Shown here: positions 10,311-22,824 of the stretch, one piece after another
Position numbering within the stretch: position 1 is the first letter of the stretch
Layout of the letters: every line of letters starts with the position of its first letter
NCBI RefSeq assembly: GCF_014859355.1
Contig: NZ_JACUUJ010000026.1
Location: 1 to 39,889 of the forward strand
Direction: 5' to 3'
Length of the DNA: 39,889 nt
From: Yoonia sp.
GTDB taxonomy: Bacteria > Pseudomonadota > Alphaproteobacteria > Rhodobacterales > Rhodobacteraceae
The notes under the pieces: model-generated
The model's input: only the letters and a program-made list of their open reading frames with translations
Databases searched by the model: none
Told to the model about the DNA's origin: nothing
Position numbers and translations under genes: made by a program

Positions 10311-11227
10311 TGCCCTCCTCCTTGATCTTTGCGGGGATCAAAATTCAGTTCCTTGGCCATGCGTTCGTAAAATGCCCGGGCTTCTGCGGTGTTGACGGGC
10401 GGATTGATGATCTGAAGTTCTGCATAAAGATCGCCGGCGTGCGGTCCGGGCAATCCGCGCCCTTTCAGCCGTAGCCGCTGTCCGCTGCGTGCATTTGGTG
10501 GGACCGTGATCTGCACTTTCCCACCGGGTGTCGGCATGCCTACCTTTGCGCCCAAGGCTGCCTCCCATGGGGTGACGGGCAGGGCGACGGAAATATCCCT
10601 GCCATCCACGCGAAATGTCGGATGCGGGGCAAGTGCCACCTCTAGGATCAGGTCGGCCCCTTGGCCGCCCTTGCCTTTCAGGCGCAAATGCTGGCCTGCG
10701 GCGATCCCTTTGGGGATATTAACGGCGATCCGTTGATCACGCCAGACGACCCTGCCTTGATCATCCAGATCAGGCACCTGCAATCCAAATGTTTTTGTTG
10801 CCCCGGTAAAGATATCTTCCAGTGCGATGTCGATGCGCGCGTGCTGGTCCATGGGGCGGGTAGATGCGCGCCTGCCGAACGGATCTTGCCTGAAGGCAGA
10901 AAAATAATCTTCGAAAATACCTGCATCGGCTTGGCTCATGTCTTCTGGGGCAAAGCCATATCCGCCAGTCCAGCGGGTTTGTTCCTGCTGCTGTTGCTGC
11001 TTCAATGTCTCCCACTCGGGGCCGAATTTATCATAGGCGGCCCGTTTTTCGGGGTCGCGCAGCACGTCATGGGCGTGACCGATGGCCTGAAACCGTGCGG
11101 CGGTATCGGCACCGGTGTTGACGTCTGGATGGTATTTGCGGGCCAGCTTGCGATAGGCGCGCTTGATATCATCGCTGCTGGCATCGCGAGCAACACCCAA
11201 GGTTTTATAAAAATCTTCTTGCACCAT
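10307..11227 (-). CDS. cbpA: DnaJ-like cochaperone CbpA
   Basis: 306 aa from ATG 11227; a longer frame to 11290 would run into the anaerobox and adds residues unlike a J-domain start, so the internal ATG (MVQEDFYKTLGV) is chosen. J-domain residues 5-70 with the HPD motif at 33-35; a glycine/phenylalanine-poor linker; two C-terminal substrate-binding beta domains (about 130-300). No CxxCxGxG zinc repeats, so this is the class B/CbpA type that works with DnaK. It forms an operon with cbpM. The FNR box centre lies 61 bp upstream and a TATGTT -10-like element is at 11255-11260. Confidence 0.9.
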   Translation of the reverse strand: MVQEDFYKTLGVARDASSDDIKRAYRKLARKYHPDVNTGADTAARFQAIGHAHDVLRDPEKRAAYDKFGPEWETLKQQQQQEQTRWTGGYGFAPEDMSQADAGIFEDYFSAFRQDPFGRRASTRPMDQHARIDIALEDIFTGATKTFGLQVPDLDDQGRVVWRDQRIAVNIPKGIAAGQHLRLKGKGGQGADLILEVALAPHPTFRVDGRDISVALPVTPWEAALGAKVGMPTPGGKVQITVPPNARSGQRLRLKGRGLPGPHAGDLYAELQIINPPVNTAEARAFYERMAKELNFDPRKDQGGGQ

Positions 11228-19804: not shown

Positions 19805-20392
19805 ATGCTAGATCTGTCTTGTTTTAAAAACGAAATTCTTGAACCCGCCATACAAGCATTTTCCGACCATCCCAATCGTTTGTTTAACGCATATGCTGCC
19901 GTCTGGGCGGTCGATTCTTATGCTTCGCATTTTGCATGGTCAAAGGTGGACTCGCCTACTTTATCTCAAAAACATCGAAGTGTGGTTGAATTGAATTTTA
20001 AAAATGACCTGTGCAAGTCACCTGACGCTTGGCAGTTCAAAGTAGTCCGCGCTCTATCGAACGCGACGAAGCATGCAGTCAGAAGCAAAGGTAGCGAACT
20101 CGCAACTGACAGTGGAAAGACACGTGTTGAAAATGTTGACGGCTGGCTTTGGTATTTTACGGGTGCAAAAGTTCGGGGGCCTCAGGTTGTGGTCGATCTG
20201 AACCTTACTTGGGATGAAGAAGAAAAAGTATGGCGAGAGGCGGGAGATGATAAAGAAGTTTTTCGCGGACCGCTATTTAGTATGGTCAATGTGTTGGACT
20301 TGATGGAGCCGTCAGTTCAGGCTATTGAAAGCTTCACCCCGCCAACATCGGCCAGAGCGACCCCACCAACAACACTGCCATTGTCACGTTGA
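19805..20392 (+). CDS. Hypothetical protein, AT-rich, tail overlaps the LysE-type gene
   Basis: 195 aa, not recognised. It is soluble and mostly helical with many Trp (WAVDSYASHFAW, DAWQFKVVRALSNATKH). The DNA is clearly richer in A/T than both neighbours, with codons such as TTT, AAA and TTA that the neighbours avoid, which suggests transfer. The last 19 residues (from about 20334) are encoded on the antisense of the LysE-type gene's 3' end and are low-complexity Pro/Thr/Ala, so the native C-terminus was probably lost when this gene landed here. The start ATG lies 9 bp after the helicase stop with no clear ribosome binding site. Expression is uncertain. Confidence 0.6.
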   Translation: MLDLSCFKNEILEPAIQAFSDHPNRLFNAYAAVWAVDSYASHFAWSKVDSPTLSQKHRSVVELNFKNDLCKSPDAWQFKVVRALSNATKHAVRSKGSELATDSGKTRVENVDGWLWYFTGAKVRGPQVVVDLNLTWDEEEKVWREAGDDKEVFRGPLFSMVNVLDLMEPSVQAIESFTPPTSARATPPTTLPLSR

Positions 20393-20933
20393 ACACCCGC
20401 AACCGCCCCGCCGTGCCCAGCCAGCGGCGCAGTTGCACACCCATCCATGCCCAAACCGACACCGATGGCAGGTTGGTTGCCGCAAACACCGCCGCCACGA
20501 TCAATGACCCCACCAAAATGCCCCGATCCTGCGGGGCATAGGCGCTGATCGCGGTGATCGCCATGAACCATGCCTTTGGGTTAACCCATTGGAATGCTGC
20601 GGCCTGCATGAAGGTAAAGGGTTTTCCCGTCGCGGCCTGCGCTTCGGGCGGGACGGCATTGGCGATTTTCCACGCCAGCCACAGCATATAGGCGGCGCTG
20701 ACGACATTGAGCACGATGTTCAGCACCGGATAGGTGACGAAAATCTGCAATAATACGATGCCGACCATGACCACCATGAACGCATGCCCCAGCGAGATGC
20801 CAAGCATATGGGGCACCGTCCGGCGCAGCCCGTAATTGGCGCCCGACGCCAGCAGCATCAGGTTGTTCGGCCCCGGCGTGATCGAACTGGCAAAGGCAAA
20901 GCCGACAAGGGCCAAGAAGATTTCATATGTCAT
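20334..20933 (-). CDS. LysE/RhtB-family amino acid exporter
   Basis: 199 aa inner-membrane protein with six hydrophobic helices. Family signature near the start: FASSITPGPNNLMLLASGANYGLRRTVPHMLGISLGHA (15-52), and WVNPKAWFMAITAISAY (115-131) in the second half. It exports amino acids or related metabolites; the substrate is not predictable. It overlaps the last 59 bp of the convergent AT-rich gene, and its start lies 43 bp after the terminator of the small RNA array on the same strand, so it is probably transcribed separately. Confidence 0.9.
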   Translation of the reverse strand: MTYEIFLALVGFAFASSITPGPNNLMLLASGANYGLRRTVPHMLGISLGHAFMVVMVGIVLLQIFVTYPVLNIVLNVVSAAYMLWLAWKIANAVPPEAQAATGKPFTFMQAAAFQWVNPKAWFMAITAISAYAPQDRGILVGSLIVAAVFAATNLPSVSVWAWMGVQLRRWLGTAGRLRVFNVTMAVLLVGSLWPMLAG

Positions 20934-20975: not shown

Positions 20976-21016
20976 AAAAAAACGGCCATGCCCGGGAGGA
21001 GGTGGGCATGACCGTT
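20976..21016 (-). terminator. Terminator of the small RNA array
   Basis: Arms 21004-21016 and 20981-20993 give a 13-bp stem (one G-U) around the loop ACCTCCTCCC, followed on the minus strand by seven Ts (20976-20982). The last CCUCCUCC hairpin thus doubles as a Rho-independent terminator. A CTTTTT run on the other side (21017-21022) would let it also stop plus-strand transcripts. Confidence 0.8.
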
Positions 21017-21275
21017 CTTTTTATCAGCGCCTCCTTGCGTCTCGGGAGGAGAAGAAGCAAGGCGCGTCCTCGCCCGCGTTACCCGGGAGGAGGTGGGCGC
21101 GGCAGGCGGTATGATCGGTTCCAACCCGGGAGGAGGTGGGCGGTTCCGAATTCTGTTTTAAAGTGGCGGCATCCGGGAGGAGGTAGATGCCGCCACTTTA
21201 TTTAAGACCGTGCCCCAGGGAGGAGGCAGAGCTACGGTCGTTTCAGGTCAACCCGAATGGGAGGAGAAGGCGGAC
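20976..21275 (-). ncRNA. CcsR/'cuckoo'-type small RNA array, seven CCUCCUCC units
   Basis: On the minus strand, seven copies of (T/-)CTCCTCCC-type motifs (plus-strand GGGAGGAG at 20994, 21044, 21085, 21128, 21175, 21218 and 21259) are spaced 41-50 bp apart. Most sit in the loop of a hairpin with its own arm sequence: 13-14 bp perfect at 21160-21199, 13 bp at 20981-21016, imperfect for 21044, 21085, 21128 and 21218, weak for 21259. In the 20981 stem the one odd pair is G-U on the minus strand but A-C on the plus strand, which supports minus-strand transcription. The array starts right after a DUF1127 gene and ends in a T-run. This is the layout of ccaF1-CcsR1-4 in Rhodobacter sphaeroides, stress-induced RNAs processed from a joint transcript; four copies are known there, seven here. 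The loop can pair with Shine-Dalgarno-like sequences. Confidence 0.85.
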
Positions 21276-21287
21276 CCGATCCGATAA

Positions 21288-21506
21288 TTACTTGCCGTAT
21301 GCCGCTTCGAGAGCGACGGATTTGATCATGCTCCGGCTCATGCCCAGATCTGCCAAATCACGGTCTGTCAGATCTTGCAGTTCGCGCAATGTTGTGGTGT
21401 AGATCTTGTGATTGGCGCGGCGTGCGGTCAGTGCGGTCCGCAGTGCTGCGATCCGATCACCAAAGGAAAAACCGCCGGTAATTGTCTCTGTCTGATATGT
21501 CATCAT
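21288..21506 (-). CDS. Small DUF1127 protein (CcaF1-like)
   Basis: 72 aa from ATG 21506 (ATG 21503 is equally possible); the frame continues upstream to about 22145, but that part is the antisense of mrp. The C-terminal domain LRELQDLTDRDLADLGMSRSMIKSVALEAAYGK (about 40-72) is a clear DUF1127 domain, Arg/Asp-rich and helical. Family members include CcaF1 of Rhodobacter sphaeroides, an RNA-binding protein that helps mature the CcsR RNAs. The first hairpin motif of the array begins about 20 bp after its stop, so gene and RNAs very likely share one transcript. Purine-rich AAAGAAAG lies before the start. Confidence 0.9.
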   Translation of the reverse strand: MMTYQTETITGGFSFGDRIAALRTALTARRANHKIYTTTLRELQDLTDRDLADLGMSRSMIKSVALEAAYGK

Positions 21507-21555: not shown

Positions 21556-21584
21556 ATATGTATGACGATGCTGCGGCTGCACAA
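21556..21584 (-). promoter_or_regulatory. Candidate promoter of the DUF1127-small RNA operon
   Basis: Minus strand: TTGTGC (21579-21584), 17 bp, then ACATAT (21556-21561), about 50 bp before the DUF1127 start. The CATACATAT -10 region resembles RpoH-type sites that drive ccaF1-ccsR in Rhodobacter sphaeroides, but the -35 match is partial, so the sigma factor cannot be assigned. Confidence 0.35.
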
Positions 21585-21750
21585 TGAGTGTTTGGGCAAT
21601 GCTGCTATGCAGAAAATGCATAAGCTATGCTGACCTAAAGTCATCTGGCTGTTACATATCGCGCCATCTGTCATGGGTTGCTTGCACTTTGCCTGAAACG
21701 TGCCAGATGTTGGTCGCAAATCTGCCGTAATGAGAATGGGAACCTTCGAC

Positions 21751-22824
21751 ATGTCCATCAACCGTGATGAAATTTTAGGCGCTCTGTCCCGACTCACGCT
21801 GCCTGGCGGGGATGATATCGTCAGCCGTGACATGGTGCGCGCGTTGCAGATTGACGGCGCATCGGTGCGGTTTGTCATCGAGGCGGCAGATCCAACCGAG
21901 GCCAGAAAGATGGAAGGCGTGCGCATGGCCGCCGAAAATATCGTCAAGGCTTTGCCGGGGGTCGAGACGGTTTCGGTCGTCCTGACGGCGCATGGGCCTG
22001 CCCCCAAGGCGCCGGAACCGCCTTCACTGAAGATTGGGCGACACCCCGCACCGCAGGCCGGCCCCGCAAAGGTGGCGGGCGTTGATCGCATTATTGCAAT
22101 CGGGTCGGGCAAGGGCGGGGTCGGAAAATCGACAGTATCGTCCAACCTTGCCGTGGCATTGGCCCGCGAAGGCCGCCGCGTCGGATTATTGGATGCCGAT
22201 ATCTATGGCCCCAGCCAGCCGCGCATGATGGGGGTCAGCAAACGCCCAGCCAGCCCCGACGGCAAAACGATCATTCCCTTACAGGCACATGGCGTGACGA
22301 TGATGTCGATCGGTCTGATGATGGACCCTGACAAAGCGATTGTCTGGCGAGGGCCCATGCTGATGGGGGCGCTGCAACAAATGCTGGGGCAGGTGCTATG
22401 GGGCGATCTGGATGTACTGATCGTTGATTTGCCACCCGGAACGGGGGATGTGCAGCTGACACTTTGCCAGAAAACCCAGCTAACCGGCGCGGTTGTTGTC
22501 AGCACCCCGCAGGATGTTGCCCTGCTGGATGCGCGCAAGGCTCTGGATATGTTCAGCACCTTAAATACGCCAATTCTGGGCCTGGTTGAAAACATGTCGA
22601 CCTTCGTCTGCCCGTCTTGTGGGACGGAAACGCAGATTTTTGGCCATGGCGGTGTCGCGGCAGAGGCGCAAAAAATTGGCGTGCCTTTCCTTGGGGCCTT
22701 GCCCATTGATCTTGATACCCGGCTGGCGGGCGATGCAGGCACACCGATTGCTGCTGGTGATGGTCCGATGTCTGATGCCTATCGGCAACTCGCGCGGCGT
22801 TTCATCGCAGGTGGGATGGCGTGA
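21751..22824 (+). CDS. mrp: Mrp/NBP35-family P-loop ATPase, Fe-S cluster carrier
   Basis: 357 aa from ATG 21751 ([12 protein letters not shown]); the frame extends to 21700, but this ATG begins the conserved domain. N-terminal MIP18/DUF59-like domain (1-80), a Pro-rich linker (82-108), then the ATPase with deviant Walker [10 protein letters not shown] (120-128), [14 protein letters not shown], and a CxxC pair (FVCPSCG) that bridges the Fe-S cluster in the dimer. It transfers Fe-S clusters to target enzymes in the cytoplasm. The stop overlaps the GTG start of the GNAT gene (GTGA), so the two are coupled. It is divergent from the DUF1127-small RNA operon. Confidence 0.95.

Follow-up and report, generated by a model that had tools for sequence, protein, structure and literature searches.

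Seven hairpins lie between a ccaF1-like gene and a T-run

On the minus strand of the window, by which we mean the whole 39,889-nt stretch of DNA analysed here, seven copies of the core CTCCTCCC are strung out between a DUF1127 (CcaF1-like) gene and a T-run. In plus-strand coordinates the cores start at 21266, 21225, 21182, 21135, 21092, 21051 and 21001, with successive spacings of 41, 43, 47, 43, 41 and 50 nt, and the layout given in the first-pass annotation (seven motifs 41-50 bp apart, from a DUF1127 gene to a T-run) is thereby borne out. The annotation had given the seven motifs as CCTCCTCC; seven CTCCTCCC cores are indeed present, but exact CCTCCTCC occurs in only five of the seven units, with TTCTCCTCCC in units 1 and 6. 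The full CCUCCUCCC is likewise found in five of seven units, and CUCCUCCC in all seven. Across the window there are 6 exact copies of CCTCCTCC against 0.68 expected, the single non-array copy lying at 10314, and none of 100 shuffled windows reached six. The ORF 5' of the array encodes 72 aa and matches PF06568 (E 2.5e-10). The features of the locus are:

21739-22824, plus strand: Mrp-type ATPase gene, divergent flank
21607-21620, minus strand: upstream TGCA-N6-GCAT box (LysR-type, T-N11-A), candidate regulator site
21568-21581, minus strand: downstream TGCA-N6-GCAT box, 39 bp from the upstream box, candidate regulator site
21288-21506, minus strand: ccaF1-like gene for the 72-aa DUF1127 protein (PF06568), stop codon included
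21158-21289, minus strand: Rfam ar14 match over units 1-3 (57.6 bits, cut-off 58.8), proposed first RNA, putatively processed
21242-21279, minus strand: predicted hairpin unit 1, core 21259-21266; two-sided changes at 10 of 11 pairs
21206-21239, minus strand: predicted hairpin unit 2, core 21218-21225; single-loop motif in 46 of 53 arrays
21159-21200, minus strand: predicted hairpin unit 3, strong stem, core 21175-21182; two-sided changes at 10 of 14 pairs
20978-21154, minus strand: units 4-7 as matched by Rfam ar14, a 51-nt insert included (52.6 bits, cut-off 58.8), proposed second RNA, putatively processed
21115-21149, minus strand: predicted hairpin unit 4, weak stem, core 21128-21135; single-loop motif in 51 of 53 arrays
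21071-21108, minus strand: predicted hairpin unit 5, core 21085-21092; two-sided changes at 6 of 7 tested pairs
21027-21065, minus strand: predicted hairpin unit 6, core 21044-21051; single-loop unpaired motif in only 18 of 53 arrays
20976-21021, minus strand: predicted hairpin unit 7 with T-run, terminator-like end, core 20994-21001; two-sided changes at 6 of 15 pairs, 99% of cells paired
20334-20933, minus strand: LysE-type gene, downstream flank

When the 50-nt units were folded, each gave a hairpin around its core (-11.9 to -28.3 kcal/mol), in agreement with the annotated placement of the motifs in hairpin loops with arms of their own; in the predicted fold of unit 6 the motif is partly paired. 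The perfect 14-bp arm pairing described for the 21160-21199 unit is present, and the seventh hairpin itself continues into the T-run ending at 20976. The last stem (20981) does need the minus strand, as had been claimed, since a U-G pair there becomes C-A on the plus strand.

The array resembles ar14 and cuckoo RNAs in a ccaF1-CcsR-type locus

At gathering cut-offs, Rfam matched only tRNA in the whole window and left the array unmatched. Relaxing the cut-offs produced array matches on the minus strand only: to ar14 with the two scores listed above, to ar7 at 35.2 and 29.7 bits (cut-off 60), and to CcsR1 (RF02791) at 28.0, 23.5, 14.3 and 14.1 bits (curated cut-off 65.3). This covariance-model search had been suggested in the first-pass annotation; it found ar14 and CcsR1 matches on the minus strand, with every score below its cut-off. 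Because the scores stay under the Rfam cut-offs, the window's copy is not formally a member of ar14 or CcsR1. The orthologous array of Yoonia litorea scores 59.4 bits for ar14, over the cut-off, which among 18 related loci scored was passed by 8 of 14 from Rhodobacterales and 4 of 4 from rhizobia. The two ar14 matches in the window do not overlap, one covering units 1-3 and the other units 4-7 with the insert.

Three traits place the locus among known systems. Adjacent hairpins with a CCUCCUCCC-type loop and variable stems are found, as in cuckoo and ar14 RNAs; a same-strand DUF1127 gene lies directly upstream, as in ccaF1-CcsR (CIN1) loci; and the promoter has two TGCA-N6-GCAT boxes, as in RNAs controlled by LsrB/VtlR. 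Judged by its sequence, the array is of the ar14/cuckoo kind and stands in a ccaF1-CcsR-type locus. The earlier assignment to cuckoo/CcsR-type RNAs on the minus strand with DUF1127 linkage was right in these terms, given the sub-cut-off ar14 and CcsR1 matches and the PF06568 ORF.

The ccaF1-CcsR1-4 locus of R. sphaeroides (CIN1), as described in the available excerpts, similarly has a DUF1127 gene followed by same-strand CCUCCUCCC-loop hairpins and a terminator. It differs in having four two-hairpin RNAs, whereas the window has seven evenly spaced hairpins that ar14 fits better, and in its reported RpoHI/RpoHII promoter (excerpt of PMC10253847), where we find paired LysR-type boxes. NfeR1/ar14 RNAs (RF02344) of rhizobia share the anti-Shine-Dalgarno (anti-SD) loops and variable stems, and a TGCA-N6-GCAT box reported at nfeR1; NfeR1 is described with three hairpins under a promoter of its own, in contrast to the at least seven hairpins behind the ccaF1 gene here. 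The cuckoo family also combines a conserved loop motif with stems whose sequence need not be conserved. Cuckoo RNAs are described with 2-4 hairpins per RNA (as cited in an excerpt of PMC4504443), whereas the window has seven hairpins in one array, though cleavage of this array may yield RNAs of that size.

Seven units are the norm of the genus

We next compared arrays across the genus, where an adjacent motif pair was found in 54 of 56 genomes. Arrays were extracted from 54 genomes; the two others are G121, which is 72% complete and lacks a pair match, and G136, which is 83% complete and has a CcaF1-like gene on a piece that bears no array. Seven recognisable positions were present in 51 of these arrays; all seven CTCCTCCC cores were exact in 33 of the 51, and the other 18 were counted with one or two altered motifs that sit at the expected spacing. 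Six units and a double-length gap were found in G129 and G132, and eleven units in G109, where those four apart average 0.81 identity. Besides its eleven-unit array, G109 carries two further three-motif arrays with 43 nt spacing (L140, L141).

In the family, a three-motif match was found in 144 of 394 genomes, with 5 matches (seven motifs) in the window's own genome; this survey used the 8-mer, the reversed pattern being a poor control for CTCCTCC. The largest count was in G220, with 24 matches and, once the locus was read, 26 motifs, and the fetched family loci hold arrays of three to 26 motifs. The large arrays are built of repeated blocks, with an average identity of 0.84 in G220 and 0.77 in G327 between units three apart, and of 0.85 in G025 between units two apart. 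In the window's array the average identity stays at or below 0.48 at every lag from 1 to 4, and its units are therefore old. In many family arrays, L034, L021 and L015 among them, spacings of 38-43 nt alternate with spacings of 62-70 nt, the pattern that tandem two-hairpin RNAs would give. TTTTT follows within 52 nt of the last motif in 28 of 53 family arrays, against 3.6% of random windows, so that a terminator-like end is common, not general, in the family. The complete chromosome of Paracoccus kondratievae (NZ_CP045072.1) has a 12-motif array behind a CcaF1-like ORF (L160).

A survey of the class found matches in 4 of 289 genomes, and both non-family matches look low-complexity. A pattern scan of genome contigs returned at least 120 matching stretches, a figure that gives no distribution. 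On viral contigs 89 stretches match the three-motif pattern (L262-L350); 55 of the 91 arrays in them have well-paired arms, 51 being of exactly three units, and no well-paired array has a CcaF1-like ORF within 900 nt upstream. By sequence these may be ar14-like RNAs in or beside proviruses, lying either in phage sequence or in host flank.

The first-pass annotation had described the array as expanded from the four units of R. sphaeroides, which compares hairpins with RNAs. We take the R. sphaeroides transcript RS0680a to be CcsR1. The Rfam CcsR1 model is 83 nt long with two hairpins, and its two better matches in the window span two units each. RS0680a is described with two stem loops and the motif in each (PMC3927594, section 2.7). 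Because each CcsR RNA has two hairpins, CcsR1-4 amount to four RNAs with about eight hairpins. Nor is an expansion in this genome supported, given that 51 of 54 genus arrays share the seven positions and that family arrays reach 26 motifs. With two-hairpin RNAs in R. sphaeroides and seven units as the genus norm, we rejected the term 'expanded'. The seven processed RNAs that had been expected are not obvious either; the non-overlapping ar14 matches suggest one three-hairpin and one four-hairpin RNA. Record size was also ruled out: by a count made by eye, 43 of 394 family genomes, the window's own included, have at least five three-motif matches, where the matches of one genome may span several arrays and G365 also has 7 control hits. 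The partial literature covered yielded no larger arrays, and we do not claim a first report.

Compensatory changes keep the stems of four units

We then asked how the arms of each unit behave. The longest helix formed by a unit's own arms averaged 9.2 over 368 family units, against 5.2 when the 3' arms were dealt among units (20 shuffles, highest 5.3), and 8.8 against 5.1 over 325 genus units. At non-Watson-Crick stem positions flanked by good pairs we counted 161 G-T and 14 A-C in the family, and 125 and 7 in the genus. Because G-U far exceeds A-C at these positions, the RNA is the CCUCC (minus) strand.

RNAalifold applied to 53 genus arrays gave 53 pairs, 35 with two-sided changes. A covariation test was restricted to the 47 pairs of units 1, 3, 5 and 7. 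Paired cells made up 97.3% (88.4 in shuffles), two-sided changes occurred at 32 of the 47 pairs (16.4 in shuffles), the covariation score was 0.394 (0.222 in shuffles), and 0 of 500 shuffles matched the real array in any measure, in tests inflated by the relatedness of the sequences. Sliding the partners by 1-3 columns left just 31-45% paired, a comparison in which the real structure is favoured because it was derived from the same alignment. The alignment thus indicates that the array's stems are under selection in units 1, 3, 5 and 7. In these units compensatory changes keep the stems; the first-pass annotation had named the opposite outcome as evidence against itself.

The number of arrays, out of 53, in which one hairpin loop holds the motif unpaired is 29, 46, 53, 51, 48, 18 and 53, from unit 1 to unit 7. 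Mean column identity is 93% in the loop motif and 77% in the rest across the 53 genus arrays, in line with the earlier view that the loop is conserved and the arms differ. The arms are not simply free, however, as unit-specific arms can be recognised across genus orthologues. Within 21066-21150 on the minus strand, most genus arrays also preserve two short elements to a degree that the stems do not require: TTTCGG ahead of unit 4, and GAGGA in the stretch from unit 5 to unit 6. It is possible that they are processing or pairing sites.

Paired promoter boxes, and an array that has outlived ccaF1

A same-strand CcaF1-like ORF precedes the array in 53 of 54 cases in the genus and in 48 of 53 distinct family arrays (L006, L030, L031, L070 and L075 are without it), and 54 of 56 genus genomes have a CcaF1-like match. 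Upstream of ccaF1, two TGCA-N6-GCAT boxes were found in 44 of 53 genus loci, one in 8 and none in 1; the boxes of a pair are 39 bp apart in 41 loci and 40 bp apart in 3. At least one box is present in 40 of 48 family loci, with 21 pairs, all at 39 or 40 bp. Among 2400 random 250-nt windows from the same loci, 187 had a box and 78 had two at any distance, a control that is inflated because random windows could cover real promoters. In the window's own genome the long form TATGCA-N5-TGCATA is confined to a single place.

At nfeR1, TGCA-N6-GCAT is reported as the LsrB motif (excerpt of PMC10746234). The available parts of the sources on VtlR/LsrB in Brucella, Agrobacterium and Sinorhizobium describe anti-SD RNAs and DUF1127 genes that are driven by a LysR regulator; in Brucella, VtlR is an activator of AbcR2 and of DUF1127 genes (excerpt of PMC12595884), and its reported box is written differently from TGCA-N6-GCAT. 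A heading in one partly available source calls LsrB unique to Rhizobiales (PMC11975290). The regulator adjoins trxB in Brucella according to these excerpts, whereas trxB of the window's own genome has no LysR-like ORF beside it within the 3.9 kb examined, its neighbours being Lrp-like and sulfurylase-like ORFs (named by eye). We infer from their sequence that the paired boxes are candidate sites of a LysR-type regulator.

In Yoonia litorea (G101) no CcaF1-like match was found in the genome at E 0.001, nor upstream of the array. This species keeps seven units and, next to an Mrp-like gene, the two boxes, which precede the first motif by 113 and 74 nt. The array has outlived ccaF1 in Y. litorea.

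Predicted targets include uptake components

In the window's own genome GGGAGGAG-N3-12-ATG occurs at 9 sites, two of which fall within the array itself, against 0 for the reversed control, and GGAGGAG-N3-12-ATG at 23 sites (control, 0). Among predicted targets of at least 100 aa behind GGAGGAG, 9 of 17 are uptake components (solute-binding types, DctQ, ABC ATPase), one of which, L410, may not start at that ATG. As a control we took the first 30 of 63 AAAGGAG sites, which gave 22 ORFs; 21 were scanned, the other being the gene of a GGAGGAG match. None of the 21 was an uptake component (Fisher p 1.5e-4 vs GGAGGAG), one porin-like outer-membrane protein not being counted as uptake. Uptake components made up 4 of 21 GGAGGAG ORFs in a second Yoonia (26 sites listed of 40; p 0.11 vs the control set), 1 of 15 in a distant genome (24 sites), and 0 of 4 in a family genome without a three-motif array (10 sites fetched of 124). 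The transporter bias of the predicted targets is a lead, strong in this genome only. A 241-aa SDR-family gene has GGAGGAG before its ATG in both Yoonia genomes (L407, L454) and is a candidate conserved target.

Discussion

The architecture, the strand, the selected stems, the family resemblance, the gene linkage and the conserved boxes are what the analysis shows, and we consider it probable that they mark a polycistronic cluster of cuckoo/ar14/CcsR-type sRNAs in the ccaF1 3' UTR of a Yoonia-group genome, whose anti-SD loops block ribosome-binding sites. Transcription, processing, the boxes as regulator sites, the targets and the blocking enter this reading as proposed steps. The minus strand would be transcribed from a promoter 5' of ccaF1 bearing the two LysR-type boxes 39 bp apart, and transcription would stop at the seventh hairpin. 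RNase E probably cuts the precursor in A/U-rich linkers, and the likeliest products are about two RNAs, one of units 1-3 and one of units 4-7. The CUCCUCCC loop of each hairpin would imitate the anti-Shine-Dalgarno end of 16S rRNA and could pair with GGGAGGAG-like ribosome-binding sites, blocking translation of the targets, perhaps those of uptake systems. Such steps are reported for relatives: the three redundant loops of NfeR1 (ar14) silence ntrB at its ribosome-binding site (excerpt of PMC10746234), and RNase E releases the CcsR RNAs from the ccaF1 transcript (excerpt of PMC10253847), while PNPase trims them (excerpt of PMC7866481).

One loop repeated in many copies, up to 26 motifs in a family array, would also suit a decoy whose loops mainly hold protein (CcaF1, Hfq) or another RNA, with unit number setting its capacity; CcsR RNAs are reported to interact with Hfq (excerpt of PMC8307010) and CcaF1 to bind RNA (excerpt of PMC10253847). 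We regard this as unlikely. CcaF1 binding cannot be the sole role of the array because the Y. litorea array persists without ccaF1, and in the relative NfeR1 the loops act on mRNAs directly, silencing them (excerpt of PMC10746234). Still less probable is an array that mostly serves the ccaF1 mRNA from its 3' UTR, by protection or termination, with loops that have no targets: the array does sit between ccaF1 and the T-run, but Y. litorea has promoter boxes and array with no ccaF1, and the loop motif is conserved above other columns. Low-complexity sequence can match the pattern, as both non-family matches of the class survey appear to, yet the shuffles, own-arm pairing, covariation and unit-by-unit conservation leave practically no room for a chance or low-complexity repeat without RNA function.

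Returning to the sRNA cluster, its kind is known, a cuckoo/ar14/CcsR array, here well conserved. What is new is the genus-wide seven-unit orthology with covariation, the range of sizes, the paired boxes, and one species that has lost ccaF1 and kept the array. A single window has thus become a genus-wide RNA operon conserved unit by unit, and the comparison of four against seven has been corrected. The paired promoter box gives a definite starting point for asking how these loci are turned on. Arrays of 3-26 motifs, a genus member with eleven units and a species that keeps boxes and array without ccaF1 are natural experiments, which make it testable whether identical loops repeat for dose, redundancy or processing; the P. 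kondratievae chromosome with its 12 motifs is handy for experiments.

More tentatively, and with somewhat less than even confidence, we suggest that the ccaF1 3' UTR of Rhodobacteraceae is a modular anti-SD cassette. It would have grown through tandem duplication, in blocks of two, three or four hairpins, reaching 26 hairpins in one genome, behind a promoter with a conserved LysR-type box pair (39-40 bp), and it would be the lasting output of the locus, able to outlive CcaF1, as in Y. litorea. If this is true, the series of array sizes would be a natural test of hairpin number against silencing dose, and the modular cassette would tie the CcsR arrays of Rhodobacteraceae to the rhizobial logic of LysR regulator, anti-SD RNA and uptake transporter.
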